Source: a virus. Taken from it: a stretch of 49,497 nucleotides of DNA. The stretch lies in IMG/VR virus record IMGVR_UViG_3300018084_000005, positions 1-49,497 of that record. The stretch is one strand, 5' to 3'. Positions 35,324 through 47,468 of this stretch are shown here, piece by piece. Position numbers and translations under genes: made by a program. Position 1 is the stretch's first letter. The number at the start of each line of letters is the position of its first letter. The notes beneath the pieces were generated by a model, which made no database searches, was not told the DNA's origin, and saw only the letters and a list, made by a program, of their open reading frames with translations.

Positions 35324-35788
35324 TCAGAACTGGCCGGTGCCCATGACGTGGCCGTCCACGTCGTAGACCGTAACGAGCCCGTTCTTCGAGCTGTAGCAGT
35401 CGGCGAACACGGACGCCAGGACGTTGCCCTCGGCGGCGTGAGCGGCGAACCCGCCCTTGTAGTTCGTCCAGATCTTCGGGTTGTCGAGGATCCCGTTCCA
35501 GTCGTCCATGTTGGACAGCTTGGTCACGTGGGTCCCAGCGGTCTTCTCGGCGACCATGCCCTTCTGCTGGATGCACGCCTTGAAGCCCTCGATGCTCTTG
35601 AGCCGGGGCTGCGGGACGCTGTCGCCCTCCGGCTCGGCCGGTGCCGTCGGAGCCGCGTTGGGCTTCGGGGTCGGCGTCGCGGACGGCTTGTCGTCGCTCC
35701 CGGCACTGGCCACGGCGCTCGCGATGACGAGGACGGCAACACCGCTGGCGAACGCGATGGCGAACTTCTGAACTCGCTTGCTACTCAC
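35324..35788 (-). CDS. secreted or membrane-anchored protein, 154 aa
   Basis: The N-terminus has a basic start and a hydrophobic core (FAIAFASGVAVLVIASAVAS), a signal peptide or anchor. A Pro/Thr/Ala-rich spacer (PSATPTPKPNAAPTAPAEPE) follows, then a small domain (KACIQQKGM, WTNYKGGFAAHA, SVFADCYSSKNGLV) with two Cys that could form a disulphide outside the cell. GTG 35788 overlaps the ThyX stop as GTGA. An exported phage protein in the replication arm suggests superinfection exclusion or host-surface interference, but that is inference. Confidence 0.65.
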   Translation of the reverse strand: MSSKRVQKFAIAFASGVAVLVIASAVASAGSDDKPSATPTPKPNAAPTAPAEPEGDSVPQPRLKSIEGFKACIQQKGMVAEKTAGTHVTKLSNMDDWNGILDNPKIWTNYKGGFAAHAAEGNVLASVFADCYSSKNGLVTVYDVDGHVMGTGQF

Positions 35789-36855
35789 TTCTTGTCCATT
35801 CCCGGCCGACGGCCGATGGTGTGGAACAGCGGATTGAACGACCGCTGCTCGTTCTTGGCCCAGGGCTTGTCGCACTGGCCTTCCGGCGACTCCCAGCCCT
35901 GGAAGGTGCACTTGGCACCGATCTTGCCCTGGCCGCCGCAGAGCCCGCACGGACGGCCCTGCTCGATGCCGAGCTCGATGTCAACCGGCGTGTTGACTCC
36001 GACGCGCCCGGTGCCGCTGCACTCGGTGCATTCGGTCCCGGTCTTCTCGCAGGAGATCTTGATGTAAGGCTCCAGCCATGGCGACTGCTCCAGGATGGCG
36101 GTGCGCATCTTGCGCATCACGTCCACCATCTCCCACATGAACATGGAGCAGCCCCGATAGGCGAACACGTTGATGAACTCGCGCACGGTGTAGGTGCACT
36201 GGATGAAGTTCACCGTCGCCTCGGGCAGGATGAACCGCGCGTCCTGGTACGAGATGTCCTCGTCGCATGCGATCTCGTACGCACGCCACGCCGCTTCGGT
36301 CGCGTGCTCGTACGCCTCTCGAGCCCTCGCGTTCTTCCAGACGGACAGCGGCATGCGGACGTCCGGACGGTCGCCGTAGAACGTCGCTCGCTGGCTCTGC
36401 TGGTGGAAGGCCGCGTTGCGCGACCGGACGAGCTGGTGGGTCAGAGCGCGGCTCGCACCGAAGACCTGGAAGACCATCGACTGCGTCTCCAGCGCGGACT
36501 GCAGTCCGCCTCGCATCATCTCCTCCCAGTCCCGGTTGTCGTCGCCGCCGTCCGGGGAGATGCCGACCGTGGCCCGCGTGGCCGACGACAGGACCGACTT
36601 GAACAGGTCCTGGTCGATGCCCTGCACGAGCTTGACTTCGAGACCGGCGGTGCCCGTGAGGATCTCGCCGTTGTCGTTCGGCGAGACGTGCTCGCCATCG
36701 TTGACCGAGTGCTTGTTGAAGGCGACGTCGGCCAGCGTGATGTTGTTGTGGTCGTCCGGGTTGTGGTTGTAGTGCGGAGCCGACGCCAGAGGCGAGTAGG
36801 GAACCTCCATGCGGTGCTCGTCCAGCCAGTCCGGGGTGTCGTTGCCGATGCTCAC
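35785..36855 (-). CDS. thyX: flavin-dependent thymidylate synthase ThyX with C-terminal zinc module
   Basis: 356 residues, over 100 longer than usual ThyX. It makes dTMP from dUMP with FAD and methylene-folate. The region ASRALTHQLVRSRNAAFHQQ and SQR corresponds to the ThyX signature RHR-x7-S, but the His is Ser here (R-S-R). After the ThyX fold (about residue 270) come CTECSGTGRV and CGLCGGQGKI, two CxxCxGxG motifs like the DnaJ zinc-binding module, with further Cys. GTG 36855 overlaps the MazG-like gene stop (GTGA). Activity is likely, although the altered motif is notable. Confidence 0.85.
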   Translation of the reverse strand: MSIGNDTPDWLDEHRMEVPYSPLASAPHYNHNPDDHNNITLADVAFNKHSVNDGEHVSPNDNGEILTGTAGLEVKLVQGIDQDLFKSVLSSATRATVGISPDGGDDNRDWEEMMRGGLQSALETQSMVFQVFGASRALTHQLVRSRNAAFHQQSQRATFYGDRPDVRMPLSVWKNARAREAYEHATEAAWRAYEIACDEDISYQDARFILPEATVNFIQCTYTVREFINVFAYRGCSMFMWEMVDVMRKMRTAILEQSPWLEPYIKISCEKTGTECTECSGTGRVGVNTPVDIELGIEQGRPCGLCGGQGKIGAKCTFQGWESPEGQCDKPWAKNEQRSFNPLFHTIGRRPGMDKK

Positions 36856-38279: not shown

Positions 38280-41200
38280 CTAGTCGTCTTCGGGGTCGAT
38301 GACCCACATCTGATTGCAGTGGACGGTCTTGCCGTAGAACGCTTTCTTCTCCACCCGCATGAGCACGAAGTCGTGGCCCAGCTTGATGTCCCAGAGCGCG
38401 TCCTTCAGCTTGGGGTACAGCCACCTGTTGACCTTGACAGTCATCAGGCCGGACTCGTCCTCCATGTACAGCGTCATGCTGTCCTTGAGGTGCGGGTCCT
38501 TAACCTCCTTCGGATCGAGCTCCTCACCGGTCCGCGACCTGTGGTTCTCGAACATGTCCTGGAGGTTTCGAGCTCGGACGGTTCCGAGTATAGCGTGTCG
38601 AGAACGCTTTGCGTCGTACGGGATGTCATCTGCCAGCGTATCGGGCAAGGGCAAGCTCCCCAACTGGCCACGTCGAATGGCCTTTACGATCGCCGCAGAT
38701 CCGTTCTTAAGTTTCCCGAGATCGAATGGATCGTCCTTCTGGCAGAAGGCTGTGATCATCTCCATCTTGGCAGCGCCGATGCCCCGCACCTTGATGAGGT
38801 CGCCCCAGCTCTCGAAGCCTCCCATCTCCTCGCGGGCGTCCGTGATCGCCTTGGCGTAGCTCCCGCCGATGCCCTTGATCTGGAGGAACCCGGCCTGTAC
38901 GCCGTCGCCGTTCGGGTGCCGCTCCCAGGTCTCCGAGCTCGTGTTGAGGTCCGGCGGATACACCTTGAAGTCGCGTCCGTAACGTGCATCCGACATATCG
39001 CGCATCACTGCGATGTGCTTCATCTTCTTCGGGTCGACCGGAGTCTTGCGAAGCTGTGCAGCATAGAACGCGATCGGGTGGTGCACCTTCAACCACATGC
39101 ACCAGAAGGCCAGCATGGCGTACGAGATGCAGTGCGCGATGTTGAACGCGTACGCACCGGCCGTAACCATCTTCTTCCAGATCATGTCGGCCGTGCGTTC
39201 GTCGATCCCTTGCCCCGTCGCTCCCTTCATGAAGTCCTCATACAGGACGTTGAATGCAGCCTCGCCCTTCTTCTGAGCGATGACCTTGCGGATCGTGGCC
39301 GCGTGAAGCCACGGGAACTTGCCGATCTCTCGACAGATGGCCAGGATCTGCTCCTGATAGATGATCTGGCCGTGCGTGGTCTCCGTGAGCTTGGAGATGT
39401 ACGGATGCAGATGCTCGATCTTGCCTCGTCCGTGCTTGATGGCGATGTAGTCGCCGGTCTGCCCGGAGTGAAGAGGACCGGGTCGGCTGAGCGCGTTGAT
39501 GTCGGCAAGCTCCATGAAGTTCTCCGGAGCCACCTCCTGACACACCATCCGAGTGGTCCTGCCCTCGAACTGGAAGATGCCGATCACGTCCGCCTTCTTG
39601 AACGCGGCGAGCGTCTTCGGGTCGTCCATCGGAATCTCGTACAGCTCTTCGAGCGGCATGTCGATAAGGTCGAGGGCGATCTTGATCATGCCCATTGTGG
39701 TGAGACCGAGCGCGTCCAGCTTCAGCACGCCAAGGTGTTCGCCGTCGTACTTGTCGAGCGACAACACCGATAGCGTCTTCTTCTCGACGCCGACGTCGTG
39801 CCTGGTATACAGAGCGCAATACCTGTTGAGGTCGTCCGCTCCCACAACCACACCGGCCGCGTGAACGCCGAAGCCCTTGAGGTTGCCCTCCAGCTCGATC
39901 GACTTGTACAGCTCGGGGTACTTGTCGAACACCTCCTTGACAACCGGGAACTGCGCCACGGTGTCCTCAAGCGATGCGTCGAACCGGCTGTCGCCGCCGG
40001 ACCGCTCGACCAAGAACTCCTTCGCCCGGTCGATCTCGAACTTCGGGATCTCGTACACCCGAGCGACATCGTCCAGGGAGTTCTTCCCGCGATAGCGGGT
40101 GTAGGTCCCGATGTTGCCAACCCGGTTCTCGCCATAGCGCATGATCATGTGCTGGCGAACGTAGTCCCGCTGCTCGTCCGCGAAGTCGAGGTCGACGTCG
40201 GGGAGGTCGTGCCGGTTGGGGTCGATGAATCGCTCGAACATCATCATGGGATATCGAAGCGGGTCGATCTCCGTGATGCGGAGGATGTAGCAGATGAGCG
40301 ATGCTGCGGCTGAGCCACGCGCCGGTCCGACGGGGATGCCGGCATCCTTGGTGTGGCGAACCGCATCGGACAGCATCAGGAAGTAGTCGATGAAGTCCTT
40401 GCTGGTCATAAGGTCCATCTCGTATCGGACCCGGTCCATGTATCGCTTCTTCTCCTTGCCACGGAGCTTGTCCAGCTTGCGATACTTCCAGCCGTCGTTG
40501 AGCCACTGCTTGAACATGTCCAGATGCGACATGCCCTCCCTGAAGTTGGCCTCCTGCTCGATGGGGTATCGAACCCGATCCATCTTCGGGATCTCCACGT
40601 TACACCGAGCCGCGATTTCGGCCGTAGAGGCGATGGCCTGCTCGGCCCCGGACTTACTCAGGCCGGTCGCGCGCAGGCGCTCGTAGATCATCTTGTCCGA
40701 CGTAGGGAGCGTCAGGCGGATGTCGTACTCCCAGCCCGCGTCCGCCGCCGCAACCGTGCCGAGCCCTCGGTTGGCCGCGTGAAGGATCCTCTGCATCCCG
40801 TTGTCTTCGGGCATGGGGTAGTGGCAGTCCGACGTGGCGACGAGCGGGACGCCATAGCGCTTCGACATCTGCTCGTACCACTCGTTGAGCTGCTTGGTCC
40901 TGCCCAGCTCCGGGAACTGCTGCGTCTCCAGGTAGTACCGATCCCCGAGCAGCCTCTTGAAGTTCTCGATCACCTTGCGGGCTCGGCGCTCGTCGCCCGT
41001 CTCGATACCCTTGCCACCCAGCAGGTTGCAGGCCAGCATCGAGTCCGCGCATCCAGAGAGCACGATGAGCCCCTGGTGGTGGTCCTTCAGGATGTTGCCG
41101 GTGACCGTCGGCCATCGGTAGAACCCCTCGGCCCAAGACCTGGAGACGATCTGGTTGAGGTTGAAGTGCCCCTCTTCGTTCATCGCCAGCAAGGTCAGGT

Positions 41201-41450
41201 GCCACTTGCGGGTGTTCTTGGTCTCGCGCATATCGATCGGAGCTGTGTACGCCTCCAGACCGTAGATCGGCTTGAGCCCGTACTTCGCCCCCGCGAGCGA
41301 CGCCTTGACCTGCGACGAGACGTTGCCGTGCTCAGTGACGGCCATGGCCGACATCCCCAGGTCCGCAGCGCGCTTGAAGTGCGCGTCGGGCGACCCGAAG
41401 CCATCGGCATACGAATACGTCGTGTGGTGATGAAGGGACACGTACTTCAT
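38280..41450 (-). CDS. dnaE: DNA polymerase III alpha subunit (C family)
   Basis: 1056 residues. An N-terminal PHP domain keeps the metal-binding pattern HHHTTYSYADG, AVTEHGN and TSDCHYP, so a 3'-5' exonuclease in the same chain is possible. The palm has PDVDLDFADEQRD (about 414-426) and VLKLDALGL (about 577), the three catalytic Asp; GPARGSAAASLICYIL is the conserved dNTP-binding loop. The helix-hairpin-helix region (IKGIGGSYAKAI, VRGIGAAKMEMI) and an OB-like C-terminus follow. ATG 41450 overlaps the previous stop (ATGA). It lacks a recognisable clamp or loader in this genome and probably borrows the host's. Confidence 0.95.
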   Translation of the reverse strand: MKYVSLHHHTTYSYADGFGSPDAHFKRAADLGMSAMAVTEHGNVSSQVKASLAGAKYGLKPIYGLEAYTAPIDMRETKNTRKWHLTLLAMNEEGHFNLNQIVSRSWAEGFYRWPTVTGNILKDHHQGLIVLSGCADSMLACNLLGGKGIETGDERRARKVIENFKRLLGDRYYLETQQFPELGRTKQLNEWYEQMSKRYGVPLVATSDCHYPMPEDNGMQRILHAANRGLGTVAAADAGWEYDIRLTLPTSDKMIYERLRATGLSKSGAEQAIASTAEIAARCNVEIPKMDRVRYPIEQEANFREGMSHLDMFKQWLNDGWKYRKLDKLRGKEKKRYMDRVRYEMDLMTSKDFIDYFLMLSDAVRHTKDAGIPVGPARGSAAASLICYILRITEIDPLRYPMMMFERFIDPNRHDLPDVDLDFADEQRDYVRQHMIMRYGENRVGNIGTYTRYRGKNSLDDVARVYEIPKFEIDRAKEFLVERSGGDSRFDASLEDTVAQFPVVKEVFDKYPELYKSIELEGNLKGFGVHAAGVVVGADDLNRYCALYTRHDVGVEKKTLSVLSLDKYDGEHLGVLKLDALGLTTMGMIKIALDLIDMPLEELYEIPMDDPKTLAAFKKADVIGIFQFEGRTTRMVCQEVAPENFMELADINALSRPGPLHSGQTGDYIAIKHGRGKIEHLHPYISKLTETTHGQIIYQEQILAICREIGKFPWLHAATIRKVIAQKKGEAAFNVLYEDFMKGATGQGIDERTADMIWKKMVTAGAYAFNIAHCISYAMLAFWCMWLKVHHPIAFYAAQLRKTPVDPKKMKHIAVMRDMSDARYGRDFKVYPPDLNTSSETWERHPNGDGVQAGFLQIKGIGGSYAKAITDAREEMGGFESWGDLIKVRGIGAAKMEMITAFCQKDDPFDLGKLKNGSAAIVKAIRRGQLGSLPLPDTLADDIPYDAKRSRHAILGTVRARNLQDMFENHRSRTGEELDPKEVKDPHLKDSMTLYMEDESGLMTVKVNRWLYPKLKDALWDIKLGHDFVLMRVEKKAFYGKTVHCNQMWVIDPEDD

Positions 41451-41719
41451 GCAGGATTACCTCTTACCCATGCGAGCGGTTCAGGCAGAGCGCCGATGCG
41501 CTTTCCGGATTCTACCTCCGGTGCCAGCCATTTCATATAGCGATCGAGATCGCTTCGACTGACGCTCATGAAGTGGCTTGCGCATGCCTTCAGCGCCACG
41601 GCTCGACCCGACATGTATCGGTCCTTGTTGCCGGCTGCGATCTCGCTGTCTGCCTTCATGATCTCTTCGAGAATCCAGGTTACATCTGATCTCCGAAGTG
41701 ACGATATGTTCGACGACAT
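41447..41719 (-). CDS. hypothetical helical protein, 90 aa
   Basis: An all-helical pattern (DVTWILEEIMKADSEIAAGN, then MSGRAVALKACASHF) without a known motif. It starts after a terminator and is coupled to the polymerase gene by ATGA, so it may be a polymerase accessory factor. The ATG follows GGGAGCAGG. Confidence 0.65.
   Translation of the reverse strand: MSSNISSLRRSDVTWILEEIMKADSEIAAGNKDRYMSGRAVALKACASHFMSVSRSDLDRYMKWLAPEVESGKRIGALPEPLAWVRGNPA
41508..41516 (-). promoter_or_regulatory. candidate -10 element GGTAGAATC before polymerase
   Basis: Minus-strand GGTANNAT match inside the end of the 41447-41719 gene, about 58 bases ahead of the dnaE ATG. Support is weaker because it lies in coding sequence. 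Confidence 0.3.
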
Positions 41720-41738
41720 CCTGCTCCCTATCGTGCGA

Positions 41739-41769
41739 GCGGGGAGCCCCGGCGTCCGAGGCTCCCCGC
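41739..41769 (-). terminator. hairpin terminator after VOC-like gene
   Basis: GCGGGGAGCC and GGCTCCCCGC are perfect ten-base arms with an eleven-base loop. It separates the enzyme block (41784 upwards) from the polymerase unit. Confidence 0.8.
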
Positions 41770-41783
41770 GTTCTGCTGCTGAC

Positions 41784-42326
41784 CTAGCCCTGGTAGTCCC
41801 AGGCCACCTTCTGGATGAACTTCAGGTCCGCGCCGATCAGGGAGCGGGTGTCGAAGATCGTCTCGGTGAACCGCTTCTTGCCCTTGACGCGCGGGTTGGT
41901 GTGGCCCTCGGTCGTGAACTTGTAGTACGGGCCGAAGCCCAGGACGCCCGCGAGCTCACCGGCCTCCCGCTCCAGGTTCTCGGTGTAGACCGAGAAGTGC
42001 GACAGGAACGGGTCGCCGCCGAAGCCGGGCTGCGTGTACCGGTGGTCGCCCGCCGAGTAGTGCAGGACCTCGAACTCCATCGGCATGATGGTGTAGTTGA
42101 AGAACATGCGGGCCTGAGTGACGGACTTCTTCCACTCGGCCCAGCCGTCCGCGTCGACGCCGGTCTTGGTCGCTCCGCGGAGCGTGGCCCCGTCCTCGGC
42201 GAACTCGTGGCCCATGCCGTTCCACATCGCCATGGCCTCATGGGCCTGGTCGAAGGTCGGGTAGTACATCGCGACCTGGTGGAACTGGTACTCCAGCTTC
42301 CCGATCTTCGCCTTCTGCTCCAGCAT
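41784..42326 (-). CDS. VOC/glyoxalase-like protein (tentative)
   Basis: 180 residues. Two similar halves, each with an opening His strand (YQFHQVAMYYPTFDQA and LSHFSVYTENLEREA) and later acidic strands (EFEVLHYSAG and FTETIFDTR), fit the doubled module of vicinal oxygen chelate proteins. If so, His/Glu residues bind one metal. The substrate is unknown. It follows the SDR gene by three bases and ends before a terminator, so it closes the enzyme block. The assignment is weak and rests on pattern alone. Confidence 0.45.
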   Translation of the reverse strand: MLEQKAKIGKLEYQFHQVAMYYPTFDQAHEAMAMWNGMGHEFAEDGATLRGATKTGVDADGWAEWKKSVTQARMFFNYTIMPMEFEVLHYSAGDHRYTQPGFGGDPFLSHFSVYTENLEREAGELAGVLGFGPYYKFTTEGHTNPRVKGKKRFTETIFDTRSLIGADLKFIQKVAWDYQG

Positions 42327-42329
42327 GTG

Positions 42330-43016
42330 TTACTTACCTCCGGTGAGCTCGGTGATGTTGCCCGACATGTAAGCCGGTGCCTTGAGGGCGTCCATGAGGA
42401 GGTGGCTGACCTCCTCCTTGGTGGCGCGACGCCCCATGGGGATCATGGACGCTTCGTACGCCTTGGCCTTCTCCGGGTCCCAGCCACGGAACCCCGGAAC
42501 GGTCGAGTCGATGTAGTTCGTCATCGGCGTGTCCTCGATGATGCCGGGCGAGATGCCGTTGACGGACCAGGCCGGTGCGAGCTCGCGGGCCAGGCACTTG
42601 ATCGCCATGACGAGCGCGGCCTTGGACGAGCAGTACGCGATCGAGCCGCGCATGGGCGTGTGGGAGCTGTCCGACACGACCGTGATGGCCCGCGTCTCGT
42701 GTCCGGGGAACGCCTCGGCCTGCGCGCCGCACACCAGGATGAAGCCGAACAGGTTGACCGAGTAGGTCGCCTGCAGATCCTGGGCCCTGACCTCCGACAC
42801 CCACTTGAGCTGGTTCACACCGGCCGTGTAGACGATGTAGTCGAACGGACCGTAGAGCTCCATGTACGCGAGGATGTGCTCGCCATCCCGCACGTCCAGG
42901 TACTCCTGAGCCGGGTGGAACCAGTCGACGCCCTCGAATCGCGGGTCGTCCTGGACCCGCTTGTAGAACTCGGCTCCGACTCCGGAACCTGCACCGACGA
43001 TGAGGCCCTTGGCCAT
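42330..43016 (-). CDS. SDR-family NAD(P)-dependent oxidoreductase
   Basis: 228 residues. GLIVGAGSGVG is the Rossmann nucleotide site (TGxxxGxG type), IVYTAGVN corresponds to the NAG motif, VVSDSS carries the catalytic Ser, and YCSSK the catalytic Tyr-x3-Lys, followed by VNGISPGIIEDTPM. All catalytic residues are present, so it should be an active dehydrogenase or reductase. ATG 43016 has AGGAGGG upstream; an in-frame ATG at 43052 lies in the previous gene's end. The substrate is unknown. Confidence 0.88.
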   Translation of the reverse strand: MAKGLIVGAGSGVGAEFYKRVQDDPRFEGVDWFHPAQEYLDVRDGEHILAYMELYGPFDYIVYTAGVNQLKWVSEVRAQDLQATYSVNLFGFILVCGAQAEAFPGHETRAITVVSDSSHTPMRGSIAYCSSKAALVMAIKCLARELAPAWSVNGISPGIIEDTPMTNYIDSTVPGFRGWDPEKAKAYEASMIPMGRRATKEEVSHLLMDALKAPAYMSGNITELTGGK

Positions 43017-43044
43017 GCTGTTGCCCTCCTGGTTGGACATGCGG

Positions 43045-43791
43045 TCAGACACCGCGCGTCATCTTGTACATCTGGATCGCGATCTCACGCTGCGCGTCGG
43101 CCAGCTTGTTGGACTGGTCGATCAGGTCGAGCAGGGTCGGAGGCGAAACGTCCTCGTCGTCCGCGTAACGGCTCGCGGCGGCGTCCTCGGGGTAACCCTC
43201 AGCCACCCCGTGCTGCTCGGCGTCGGCCTGAGCGAAAGCCTCTCCGCTCAGACGTGCCAGTCCCTCGGAGACGGACATCCGCTTGTCCGGGGTCCACGCG
43301 CTCTCCACGACGTTCCCGTAGAGCATCTCGCGGCACCGGTCGGTGATCCGGGACGAGAGCGCTTCGCTCAGCGTGTTGGAGACGCGCAGGGCCTGGGACG
43401 GACCGCCGAGCTCTCCGATGAACCGCTCGACGAACTCGTCCGTGCTCAGGCCGCTGTAGGCGTGGCTGCGGTCGGTCTCCTCCTTGAAGCGGATCATGTG
43501 CAGCGTGAGGAACAGGTGGCCGATCAGGTCCATGATGACCTCGTCGGAGTCCTCGAACTGCAGCTTGTCGCCGTCCCAGAGCGAGCGCTTCAGCTTCAGC
43601 ATCTTGCGGTTGATGTCCGCATACTGGCCGCGCACCCCGAGGACCTTGGCCCCGTCGCCGTAGTCGGCGTTCTTGCTGGCGAACAGCCGGAGCCACTCGG
43701 GCATCAGCCGGGTCGCGATGTTCATCAGCTCGATGCTGTCGCCGGTCTGCCCGTTGATCTCGACGCCGTCTCCGTCAGGCATGATGCGCAT
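43045..43791 (-). CDS. NMAD1/DUF1599-like or MazG-related nucleotide-associated protein
   Basis: 248 residues. The segment FASKNADYGDGAKVLG, then NRKMLKLKRSLWDG and DSDEVIMDLIGHLFLTLHMI resembles the helical KNxDYGD...RK...D..D domain (DUF1599, nucleotide modification associated domain 1), seen in phages with modified bases and related to pyrophosphohydrolases. The C-terminal half (120-248) is unrecognised. The start may be ATG 43791 or 43782. It overlaps the HAD gene, so the two are made together. Function inferred. Confidence 0.6.
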   Translation of the reverse strand: MRIMPDGDGVEINGQTGDSIELMNIATRLMPEWLRLFASKNADYGDGAKVLGVRGQYADINRKMLKLKRSLWDGDKLQFEDSDEVIMDLIGHLFLTLHMIRFKEETDRSHAYSGLSTDEFVERFIGELGGPSQALRVSNTLSEALSSRITDRCREMLYGNVVESAWTPDKRMSVSEGLARLSGEAFAQADAEQHGVAEGYPEDAAASRYADDEDVSPPTLLDLIDQSNKLADAQREIAIQMYKMTRGV

Positions 43792-44431
43792 AGGTCCCAG
43801 TTCCGTTCTTGTGCATGTTGATCAGCTCAAGGATCGTTTCCTTGGCCGCTTCCAGAGTCCATACGGACATCTGATCCTTGTCGGGCGTGTATGCCCGGTT
43901 GGCCTCGTTCAGCCGCATGATGGTCGGCACCCCGAGTCCGTTGGCCACCCCGATCTGGCTGAGGTCGTCGTCGAGCGCGCAGACAACCCGATCGCGGCCG
44001 ACCGACCTCACGAGGTCCCTGTACTTGTGCTCGCCGTACAGGATGTGGTCGACCTTGATTCCGTTCCGTCGGAGCCAGTGCTGGGTGTCCAGGTCGATCG
44101 TGCTCATGGCCAGGTACGGCCGTGTCGTGCAGGCCGCCACGCCGACGCCCGCCTTACGGATGGTTCGGACCATCTCTGCAGCCCCGTCGAACACCGGGAT
44201 GGAGCGCTTCATGCCGCCCATTCGGTATGCGAGCTTACACTGCCTGTAGACAGCCTTGCTCATGCCGAGCTGCTTATAGAACGGACCGACGACTTCCGGG
44301 TCCCAGACGATCTCGCGGCCCACCCACATCCGAGCGAACTGCTCGAAGTGCCTGTGGTAGTCGCCGAGGGTTCCGTCGAGGTCCAGCGCTACCAGCGGGG
44401 CGCTAGGCCCCGGTCGTGTCGAGCGATACAT
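43775..44431 (-). CDS. HAD-superfamily hydrolase (nucleotidase-like)
   Basis: 218 residues. Motif I is LVALDLDGTLGDY (catalytic Asp near residue 15), motif II is VAACTTRPY, motif III the Lys/Arg region around HKYRDLV and motif IV VVCALDDDLSQI. The compact helical cap (FEQFARMWVGREIVWDP) resembles 5'(3')-deoxyribonucleotidases or other small phosphatases. ATG 44431 overlaps the preceding gene by 29 bases. Dephosphorylation of a nucleotide or sugar phosphate is the likely reaction; its neighbours (oxidoreductases, NMAD1-like) suggest a shared pathway. Confidence 0.82.
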   Translation of the reverse strand: MYRSTRPGPSAPLVALDLDGTLGDYHRHFEQFARMWVGREIVWDPEVVGPFYKQLGMSKAVYRQCKLAYRMGGMKRSIPVFDGAAEMVRTIRKAGVGVAACTTRPYLAMSTIDLDTQHWLRRNGIKVDHILYGEHKYRDLVRSVGRDRVVCALDDDLSQIGVANGLGVPTIMRLNEANRAYTPDKDQMSVWTLEAAKETILELINMHKNGTGTYAHHA

Positions 44432-45197
44432 CCGTCTGTACTCCGTCCATGATCTTGTTGGCCTCCTCCCAGGCTTCGTGCGAGAGGACGCCCTTCTTCC
44501 ACTTACCGTACCGGCCCATCCGGTGAACGTCGGGGAAGCACCGGCACGACGTGCGGATGGGCTTCTCCACTCGCCAGATCTGGCCGTTGTACGAGAGCGG
44601 GTACTTGTGGTGCGGCCACTCCGTGTTGGTGAAGCCCTGGATCTTGCTGGCTCGGTACCAGTCGAAGCTGGCCTCCCCGTTGCACAAGACCGTGTTGTTC
44701 GACAACGTGCACTCAAGCTCGTTCGTGGCCCACACGAGCTCGGACTCGAACTTGTGCCCGCTGTTGTAGCAGAGGATCTTCGCCGGGATCGTGGAGATGA
44801 CCGCGTCCGGCTTCCAGTTGCGGATCAGGTTGGACAGGACAGACGGCGAGATGTCGACGTCGTGCACGTCCGAGCCGTACAAGGCCCACAGGCTGTCGTA
44901 CGCCTCTCGGATGTCCCAGGCCTGGTGTCGGCCGAGCAGCGACTGCGGGCTGACCTCGACGTTGCTGTCCGGCCCGTACACCTTGTCTCGGTAACCGGCC
45001 ACGTCGCCGCTGAGCTCGTAGTTGATCTCGAACGGAGCCTTGATCGACACGCCGGGGATCGGCGCATGCAGATACTGGGCTCCGTTCATGAACGACTTGC
45101 GAGCCTTCGACATGACGACGAAGTTCGCACCCCGGCTGTATGCGGCGTGCGCCGCGATGAGGCCTGCCGGGCCACAACCCAGGATCAGCACCTTCAC
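44403..45197 (-). CDS. FAD-dependent oxidoreductase
   Basis: 264 residues. VKVLILGCGPAGLIAAHAAY is a dinucleotide-binding fold start (GxGxxG), followed by an acidic/basic exchange at the end of the second strand (VVMSKA) where the usual Glu is absent. The end RMGRYGKWKKGVLSHEAWEE resembles the second FAD contact of amine oxidase and UDP-galactopyranose mutase-like flavoproteins. It is shorter than most such enzymes, so the substrate domain is reduced. GTG 45197 overlaps the preceding stop as GTGA. Confidence 0.75.
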   Translation of the reverse strand: MKVLILGCGPAGLIAAHAAYSRGANFVVMSKARKSFMNGAQYLHAPIPGVSIKAPFEINYELSGDVAGYRDKVYGPDSNVEVSPQSLLGRHQAWDIREAYDSLWALYGSDVHDVDISPSVLSNLIRNWKPDAVISTIPAKILCYNSGHKFESELVWATNELECTLSNNTVLCNGEASFDWYRASKIQGFTNTEWPHHKYPLSYNGQIWRVEKPIRTSCRCFPDVHRMGRYGKWKKGVLSHEAWEEANKIMDGVQTDVSLDTTGA

Positions 45198-45370
45198 TTG
45201 ATCTCCACTGTCTCGATCGGCTTCTGCCCGACCTCGTGGATTCGAGATCGGATTGCTCCGGCCCTTGCGTGCGGGACGCACTGTGAGTCTATCACGTGAA
45301 TCCCGCCGCACGTCTTAGCCTTCTCGCAGGTGCACCCCGGCTCGTCGGGAAGGCAGCAGACCAAGCTCAT
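45194..45370 (-). CDS. small cysteine-rich protein, 58 aa
   Basis: The first half has seven Cys (LVCCLPDEPGCTCEKAKTC, then SQC), the second half is basic with none. ATG 45370 overlaps the preceding stop (ATGA). It directly precedes the FAD oxidoreductase and could be a metal- or electron-carrying partner, though there is no direct evidence. Confidence 0.55.
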   Translation of the reverse strand: MSLVCCLPDEPGCTCEKAKTCGGIHVIDSQCVPHARAGAIRSRIHEVGQKPIETVEIK

Positions 45371-45615
45371 CTCTTCAACCTCGTCAATCCCGGATGCGGC
45401 ATCCTCTTGAAGGCGGCGAGGTCCTTGGGGTCGGCCCACTTCTTCGGATTGAATCCCCACGGCTCGGCGTCGCAGTCGCTCGCCATGACCTGATGGTCGA
45501 GCCACATGTCCAGCAAAGCGTTCACCAGGTCGGTGTTGCCCTGGTTCTTGGCGATCGTGATCCGCTCGCCGATGTACTTGTACGCCTCGGGGTTGGTCTG
45601 CGGTGTGTCGGGCAT
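45367..45615 (-). CDS. hypothetical protein, 82 aa
   Basis: A helical start (TNPEAYKYIGERITIAKNQG, LVNALLDMWLDHQVM) is followed by Trp-containing loops (PWGFNPKKWADPKDL). The ATG overlaps the TAA of the previous gene by one base. No known family. Confidence 0.6.
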   Translation of the reverse strand: MPDTPQTNPEAYKYIGERITIAKNQGNTDLVNALLDMWLDHQVMASDCDAEPWGFNPKKWADPKDLAAFKRMPHPGLTRLKR

Positions 45616-46166
45616 TACAGGTTCACCACCCTGCTTCTGATGTCGTCCGGCAGCCAGAGGTCGTCAACCTCCATCGCCGCCTTGTCAGTCTTGTTCACCC
45701 GAAGCTCGTAGCCGCCATCCTCAGCGGGAACGGGCCACAGGGTCGGCCAGTATTCGTCGACCTCCGGCCATGGTACCTCTGCCTCGGCCACGATGGCCTC
45801 ATGCCGAAGTCCAGTCGACCAGTGAGACTTGATGATGTCCTCGTCCTCGTGCCATGCCGGCATCTCGAACGTGGCCCCGAGTCGGACAAGCTCCTTGCCG
45901 TAATTGGCAAACATCCAGAACCAACCGGGGTCGTTGAAGCGGTTGACGCGCATCTCCTGACAGGCCAGAGAGCCGTACACGCACACCGCCAAGTGGCTGC
46001 CTCGCCAACCCTGTCCGGCTGCCGGCAGCTTGTCCTCTCCGTCCTGCATCCGACTGTGAACAGCCCCGAGCAGCTTGGTGAGGTTCTCCAGTGCGTCTTC
46101 CTTCAGCCATTCCAGCGTCAGCGTCGGACGCGGATCGAGCCACCAGATGACTCGGGGGTCGCTCAC
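45615..46166 (-). CDS. MSMEG_6728/DNA-glycosylase-like hypothetical protein (tentative)
   Basis: 183 residues, rich in Trp. The pattern FWMFANYGKELVRLG, then EMPAWHEDEDIIKSHWSTGL and a final YWPTLWPVP recalls phage and actinobacterial proteins of the MSMEG_6728 type (related by name to pyrimidine-dimer glycosylases), whose SHRSxL motif has Arg where Trp stands here. Function not established. GTG 46166 overlaps the previous stop (GTGA). It precedes the enzyme block and may be part of it. Confidence 0.5.
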   Translation of the reverse strand: MSDPRVIWWLDPRPTLTLEWLKEDALENLTKLLGAVHSRMQDGEDKLPAAGQGWRGSHLAVCVYGSLACQEMRVNRFNDPGWFWMFANYGKELVRLGATFEMPAWHEDEDIIKSHWSTGLRHEAIVAEAEVPWPEVDEYWPTLWPVPAEDGGYELRVNKTDKAAMEVDDLWLPDDIRSRVVNL

Positions 46167-46763: not shown

Positions 46764-47468
46764 TCAGCTCGCGACGACGGACAGCCCGGCCATGCGGCCC
46801 GACTTCAGGAGGAAGTCGTCGCGGTCGCCCTGCTTGACGTCGACGGACGTGTCGAGCACCATCAGCTCCCAGGCACCGGGGATGACCTTGCCCGCGTCGT
46901 CCCGCTTGCGCCGGAGGTGCGCGACGGCGATGGTGTTCTTCGGCTTGTACAGGCTCGGCTCGATCCAGGCCACGGGGCTCTTGCTGCCGCCGCTGGAGTC
47001 GTACAGCGTGACCGTGATGTTCTTGGCCCGCGTCATGTCCGAGCCACGCTTGAAGGCAGCCGCGTTCAGGACGATGTCCGTGATGCGGATCGGCAGCTTG
47101 GCGAGCTCGAACCGCGCGGTCTCGTCATCCCCCGCTCCCTCGCCGGTCTGGTTGTCCCCGGTGTGCGTGGCCGAACCGGCGGCGCTGCCCTCGTTCGAGA
47201 AGGAGTCGAGCTCGTCCCAGCCGAGGTACTTGACCGGCTTGTTGCCCGCGTAGAACGTGGCGACCCCGTCCAGGTCGGAGCCCGCCTTGCGGTTCAGCCA
47301 GCCCAGGGCACCGCCCTTGCCACCCGTGGACTTGTCCCAGCCCAGGCCCATCTCGAGAACCTCGACGCCGGACAGGTCGTTCCAGCCGTCGGCCGGGGTG
47401 ATGGTCTGCAGCTGCGCGTAGTCCACCTCGACGACCGGGGTGGTGTAGCCCTTGCTCAGATCCGCCAT
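46764..47468 (-). CDS. terD: TerD-domain protein
   Basis: 234 residues. The TerD core is clear: VEVLEMGLGWDK, SDLDGVATFYA, then the hallmark THTGDNQTGEGAGDDE with acidic residues that bind calcium, and LPIRITDIVLNAAAF. Bacterial TerD proteins are linked to tellurite resistance, stress and phage inhibition. GGAGTGC precedes the ATG. It stands alone between hairpins on both sides, which suggests separate and probably strong expression. A role in protecting or signalling in the infected cell is unproven. Confidence 0.9.
   Translation of the reverse strand: MADLSKGYTTPVVEVDYAQLQTITPADGWNDLSGVEVLEMGLGWDKSTGGKGGALGWLNRKAGSDLDGVATFYAGNKPVKYLGWDELDSFSNEGSAAGSATHTGDNQTGEGAGDDETARFELAKLPIRITDIVLNAAAFKRGSDMTRAKNITVTLYDSSGGSKSPVAWIEPSLYKPKNTIAVAHLRRKRDDAGKVIPGAWELMVLDTSVDVKQGDRDDFLLKSGRMAGLSVVAS

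Follow-up and report, generated by a model that had tools for sequence, protein, structure and literature searches.

What do the eight packed minus-strand genes at positions 41784-46166 of IMG/VR virus record IMGVR_UViG_3300018084_000005 do for the phage that carries them? The record, whose 49,497 bases are referred to here as the window, is close to the Streptomyces phages Dryad, Wentworth, and Gibson (80 to 82% identity over two thirds of the block). An earlier note, made from the sequence alone, had described the block as one coupled unit encoding a glycosylase-like protein, two small proteins, a flavin adenine dinucleotide (FAD) oxidoreductase, a HAD phosphatase, an NMAD1/DUF1599-like protein, an SDR dehydrogenase, and a VOC-like protein. 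We recovered the eight open reading frames (ORFs) in this order and as one unit: six of the seven junctions overlap or span at most 4 nucleotides (GTGA/ATGA/TAATG type), and the remaining one, between the NMAD1-like and SDR genes, is 28 nucleotides long and contains AGGAGG. The set is incomplete as the earlier note drew it, however, because an altered ThyX gene and the downstream DnaE gene, both overlooked there, belong to it too. Together with the nearby altered ThyX gene, the block is the Streptomyces-phage version of a cassette that recurs in hundreds of unrelated phages. The reading that we favor, with a probability of about 0.6, is that this cassette encodes a ThyX-based pathway for a modified pyrimidine deoxynucleotide, most likely a 5-substituted uracil that replaces some or all of the thymine and leaves DNA that host nucleases cut poorly. 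The members of the cassette in the window are as follows.

44403..45197, minus strand: FAD-binding flavoenzyme (PHROG 8720), a core member; its GTG start overlaps the upstream stop
43775..44431, minus strand: HAD phosphatase, PNKP/nucleotidase-like (PHROG 415, 8.8e-24), motifs intact
43045..43791, minus strand: NMAD1-like protein with a KNxDYG...DLIGH pattern (PHROG 10271), positional counterpart of DUF6378 in Gram-negative phages
42330..43016, minus strand: SDR (FabG-like) dehydrogenase (PHROG 3142); likely start at 43016, with AGGAGG
41784..42326, minus strand: VOC (vicinal oxygen chelate) superfamily protein by predicted structure; conserved Q17, E84/E86, H110, and H142
38280..41450, minus strand: DnaE-type DNA polymerase III alpha, which adjoins the cassette in almost every lineage examined
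35785..36855, minus strand: altered ThyX of the flavin-dependent thymidylate synthase family (Pfam Thy1, 9.8e-28), a core member

Neighbor counts in viral contigs show that the grouping of the block genes is far above chance. We searched 2.9 million viral contigs for the FAD protein (in two forms, a and g), the VOC protein, and the altered ThyX, with canonical ThyX as the control, and classified the ORFs of the scanned contigs with purpose-built profiles. The main comparison comprises contigs in which ThyX is flanked by 8 kb or more on each side (32 altered and 54 canonical); the ThyX-anchored scan pattern includes the altered motif, which makes it biased for the motif and unbiased for the neighbors. 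The canonical controls were obtained with an alignment query, a single Mycobacterium tuberculosis ThyX query having given only 3. A FAD gene lies beside ThyX in 31 of the 32 altered contigs and in none of the 54 canonical ones; the corresponding figures are 32/32 and 0/54 for DnaE, 28/32 and 5/54 for HAD, 26/32 and 0/54 for NMAD1/DUF6378, 10/32 and 0/54 for SDR, and 8/32 and 0/54 for VOC.

The FAD and altered ThyX genes form the core of the cassette, and DnaE lies close by. HAD and NMAD1/DUF6378 are almost always present; SDR and VOC constitute an accessory module. VOC is accompanied by SDR in 134 of 136 contigs, and on the ThyX tree its presence changes six times or more. The order FAD-ThyX-HAD-DUF6378-SDR-VOC is intact in 52 contigs, with 40 more in which HAD is fused to DUF6378. 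Among Gram-negative phages, XcP1, MTx, and Bas101 have the order FAD - ThyX - HAD(+DUF6378) - SDR - VOC - exonuclease - DnaE. In actinophages they read FAD - HAD - NMAD1-like/DUF6378 - (SDR) - (VOC) - DnaE in variable order, with ThyX nearby (in Krampus, between the FAD and NMAD1-like genes). Dryad has no SDR and VOC genes at the position that they occupy in the window, and the window phage therefore carries a larger version of the cassette. A small methyltransferase gene (PHROG 6636; for example, Troll4 gp63 and Genamy16 gp75) is inserted in some cassettes, at L007:13416-13946 and about 13 further loci. DnaE is split in two in RikSengupta, Krampus, Onyinye, and Wollypog, in the last with an HNH endonuclease gene separating the two ORFs.

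Phage records with the FAD gene number 479, made up of 120 actinophage records (form a) and 359 others (form g). The NMAD1-like gene occurs in 115 records, with a host split close to that of FAD form a, and a ThyX search with the Bas101 query returned 521 records; for four hosts its counts equal those of FAD form g (Pseudomonas, 291; Escherichia, 27; Serratia, 9; Xanthomonas, 6). FAD, altered ThyX, HAD, NMAD1/DUF6378, and DnaE, often with SDR and VOC, occur together in actinophages, Wifcevirus, Carpasinavirus, Myosmarvirus, and Pbunavirus. A search for co-occurrence in other phages had been named beforehand as a refuting test, with independent scattering as the refuting outcome; the genes stay together across distant phages. 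Among the 84,980 bacterial and archaeal genomes scanned, three contigs matched, each with a FAD gene, so the cassette is essentially viral.

The RHR motif of flavin-dependent thymidylate synthases is conserved and contacts the flavin (PMC6514825). Cassette and canonical phage ThyX belong to the same Pfam family, Thy1, and differ in that the former has R-T/Q/S/N-R for RHR, whereas the latter lacks the neighbor set. In the motif alignment, the window ThyX reads R-S-R, and its score against the TIGR02170 thyX equivalog (72.2 bits) is below the 87.9-bit cutoff. Of 188 cassette ThyX sequences, 116 have T at the middle position, 32 have Q, 31 have S, 6 have N, and 3 have H (four more alignment rows are gapped there), and the R on each side and the nucleotide-binding S/T-x-R are largely retained; of the control sequences resolved at this position, 72 of 74 have H. 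In the ThyX tree, one branch (support, 94) divides altered from canonical sequences, and the altered side comprises three deep lineages. Convergence, that is, several independent losses of the RHR histidine, is not supported, since one branch suffices. Exactly one Thy1 gene is present in each of 12 cassette-bearing records (11 deposited phage records and the window record, which is a fragment). ThyA (PF00303) was found in none of the 12, with controls positive in 9 of 14, and the cassette is therefore not the known 5-hydroxymethyluracil-type pathway. CxxC repeats mark the C-terminal tail of the window ThyX (weak match to DnaJ CXXCXGXG, E = 0.014); this tail is found in Dryad too and is missing from Gram-negative ThyX.

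The enzyme assignments made for the block in the earlier note were confirmed in part. The FAD protein is recognized by sequence only in its N-terminal flavin Rossmann region (Pfam), and its predicted structure (predicted local distance difference test [pLDDT] score, 95) has a fold of the UDP-galactopyranose mutase (UGM)/DAAO/VioD type; UGM is among the best fold matches, yet DAAO and VioD score alike, and no UGM sequence-family match was found. Profiles of FAD forms a and g align in the N-terminal Rossmann region only (probability, 78%), and by eye both forms share a C-terminal GR-(Y/F)-x-x-W. The HAD phosphatase preserves its catalytic D-D-T-K-DD. The SDR is strongly borne out by Pfam adh_short (2e-22), a Rossmann glycine motif, and a catalytic N-S-Y-K that is invariant in the alignment. 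The VOC protein has no Pfam match, though its model (pLDDT, 88.5) shows the double beta-alpha-beta-beta-beta fold, with methylmalonyl-CoA epimerase as the best PDB match (E = 1.4e-6); Q17, E86, and H110 are invariant in 55 sequences, and K169 probably occupies the fourth of the candidate metal-binding positions. The DUF1599 assignment had to be abandoned: none of 12 members of the NMAD1-like family matches Pfam DUF1599 (PF07659), and the profile finds nothing in the 12 cassette records at E values of up to 1. The KNxDYG...DLIGH pattern is kept across the NMAD1-like protein's own family. With DUF6378 it shares a short aligned stretch only (hhalign probability, 11%), and we therefore treat the two as positional equivalents and not as proven homologs.

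Restriction phenotypes have been published for two groups of cassette phages. Wifcevirus phages Bas98-101 resist every tested restriction-modification system except EcoP1_I and have no known protection (PMC11990801); Bas101 has the full cassette. Virion DNA of the Pbunavirus JG024, which has the core set (FAD, altered ThyX, HAD+DUF6378, and DnaE), is left uncut by ScaI, NdeI, and BsaI despite the presence of sites and is cut by XbaI and SacII (PMC10913387). The JG024 authors suspected methylation (PMC10913387), to which the cassette would be an alternative. DNA of the PB1-like phage P1-14pyo is cut incompletely by EcoRI and HindIII and is cut by Sau3A and AluI (PMC3634792); the nicks reported in the same paper belong to a LUZ24-like phage without the cassette and were not used. 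Hypermodified thymine in ViI DNA likewise blocks NdeI (PMC6449724). Cutting at sites that contain C or G, combined with resistance where T/A-rich sites are concerned, would implicate thymine (or adenine), in a small sample and with XbaI excepted. These phenotypes, together with the association of the set with DnaE and a variant thymidylate synthase, favor the nucleotide half of the earlier proposal that the block could modify nucleotides or make a small molecule (PMC11990801, PMC10913387); the other half, a free small molecule, found no support.

In the pathway that we propose, the altered ThyX would use methylene-tetrahydrofolate to place a one-carbon unit on C5 of deoxyuridylate (dUMP), and the change to RSR, RTR, or RQR would alter the outcome (for example, to a 5-hydroxymethyl group) from plain thymidylate (dTMP). 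The FAD enzyme, which accompanies the altered ThyX in nearly every case, would carry out the next redox or flavin-adduct step on the side chain. The HAD phosphatase and the linked, sometimes fused NMAD1/DUF6378 protein may clear competing or intermediate nucleotides, the SDR may oxidize or reduce the side chain, and the VOC protein may complete a decorated form in some of the phages. The DnaE-type polymerase, whose linkage is observed, would copy DNA with the modified nucleotide.

Several points weigh against this proposal. Our literature search turned up neither mass spectra nor enzyme assays for cassette phages, and no restriction data for actinophages, and the roles given to the HAD, NMAD1-like, SDR, and VOC proteins are read from their folds. 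XbaI cuts JG024 DNA despite the T in its site (TCTAGA), so a modification would have to be partial or context dependent. Three cassette ThyX proteins (L089, L090, and L236) retain the RHR histidine; L089 and L236 are nested in the altered side of the tree, and L089 and L090 lack HAD and DUF6378. Pbunavirus and Wifcevirus differ in SDR and VOC, and one common product should not be assumed. The single branch that separates altered from canonical ThyX means that part of the linkage is shared descent. If that were the whole explanation, the genes would be neighbors without a joint pathway, inherited with the replication module, and restriction resistance would have another cause. The DnaE polymerases of the compared lineages are indeed related (about 30 to 63% identity), but the set persists despite reshuffled order and with ThyX either adjacent or distant, HAD and DUF6378 have become fused, and VOC changes repeatedly on the ThyX tree while tracking SDR. 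We give this explanation very little credence.

An unmodified genome would result if the altered ThyX just made dTMP, taking electrons from the FAD protein, with the HAD and NMAD1-like proteins tuning the deoxynucleoside triphosphate pool, so that the thymidylate supply is boosted. The ThyX fold and the motif's nucleotide-binding S/T and R are kept, there is one Thy1 gene per genome, and the FAD gene almost always follows the altered ThyX, all of which would suit such a role. Phages with an ordinary ThyX, however, never have the set (0/54), dTMP synthesis has no place for SDR and VOC, and the restriction resistance of Wifcevirus and JG024 is left unexplained; we consider this account unlikely. 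Modification of another base, cytosine or adenine, appears quite improbable: ThyA relatives can act on deoxycytidylate (dCMP), Dryad has a dCMP deaminase, and some cassettes include a methyltransferase (Troll4 gp63), but SacII, Sau3A, and AluI, with C in their sites, cut JG024 or PB1-like DNA, and the sites at which ScaI and NdeI fail to cut are rich in T/A, in a small mixed sample. Least credible to us is the synthesis of a free small molecule during infection, such as a nucleoside antibiotic-like compound or a host inhibitor. Although FAD, SDR, HAD, and VOC enzymes are frequent in secondary metabolism, and nucleoside antibiotics also use flavin- and folate-dependent carbon transfer (PMC5954106), the linkage to DnaE and replication genes is constant, the set has no transporter or resistance gene, and the restriction phenotypes operate at the level of DNA.

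Known thymidine hypermodification is reported, in work by Lee from 2018 and 2022, to depend at its outset on two enzymes, a dUMP hydroxymethylase of the ThyA type and a 5-hydroxymethyldeoxyuridine (5hmdU) DNA kinase. The 5hmdU-derived systems of ViI, M6, and phiW-14 resemble the cassette in combining a thymidylate-synthase-family enzyme with tailoring genes, and their DNA resists NdeI and other enzymes (PMC6449724). They differ from it in that the cassette is of the ThyX type, with no ThyA in the 12 records and with another tailoring set; no match to the 5hmdU DNA kinase HMUDK_hel (PF18723) turned up in the 12 records, in a search in which no positive control matched either. The cassette works like thymidine hypermodification yet is not assigned to that family, the ThyA-type hydroxymethylase being absent. 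In the MetaGPA 5-carbamoyloxymethylcytosine cassette, a thymidylate-synthase-like enzyme is likewise linked to a tailoring enzyme (PMC8670742). That cassette differs in acting on cytosine nucleotides with a ThyA-type enzyme and in having a carbamoyltransferase; the block has neither. Z-genome phages have purine chemistry and no genes in common with the cassette, and besides PurZ and the Z-specific polymerase DpoZ, their components include MazZ and DatZ. They nevertheless parallel it in logic, with modified-nucleotide synthesis, pool-cleaning hydrolases, and a dedicated polymerase (PMC12884076). For Xenia2 (cluster DV), an oxidoreductase, a phosphatase, a methyltransferase, a FabG-like reductase, and ThyX were listed as individual phams in clusters that include D, DG, DV, and EF (PMC11385102), but not as one pathway and with no tie to Gram-negative phages. 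We found no description of the set as one pathway in the literature searched, where subscription papers and preprints are thinly covered, and within that scope the earlier statement that no described pathway has this set stands.

The remaining features around the block are as follows.

45615..46166, minus strand: Pyr_excise/MSMEG_6728-like ("glycosylase-like") protein, upstream of FAD in some actinophages
45367..45615, minus strand: 82-amino-acid protein (PHROG 27068), clade specific
45194..45370, minus strand: small Cys-rich protein (PHROG 36196), clade specific
41725..41769 (approximate, from the fold of 41700-41783), minus strand: perfect 14-bp GC-rich hairpin without a T tract
41447..41719, minus strand: 90-amino-acid hypothetical protein between the hairpin and DnaE, equivalent by position to Dryad gp57

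The first three are clade-specific extras outside the core. The glycosylase label is weakly backed by an NCBIfam MSMEG_6728 match (2.7e-4) for the window protein and a Pfam Pyr_excise match (0.0016) for RikSengupta gp54, and no such gene was found in the Gram-negative cassette phages. What had been called a strong terminator after VOC is the hairpin (-40 kcal/mol; z, -3.8), which a terminator scan did not pick up and which is possibly an attenuator or terminator. In XcP1 and MTx, terminators are annotated directly after VOC, at the matching position. A TerD-domain protein (46764-47468; Pfam, 2.5e-12) is encoded upstream of the block, as in relatives (Rooney and Lizz, annotated as tellurium resistance protein D family). 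An Rfam scan of the window gave no match, and no tRNA genes were found in it.

We put at about even odds the broader proposal that a widespread hypermodification derived from ThyX, and not from ThyA, yields at least one new thymine-site base across several hundred known phages, including the Pbunavirus used in therapy, with SDR and VOC giving a further decorated form in a subset. If true, it would mean that phage DNA modification also has a ThyX-based route, and it would provide a common cause for the restriction resistance of Wifcevirus and the uncut DNA of the therapeutic-type Pbunavirus JG024. It would bear on the cloning and handling of cassette phages as unmodified DNA in the laboratory, and genes annotated as "hypothetical," "oxidoreductase," and "phosphatase" in about 480 sequenced phages would become one testable pathway.

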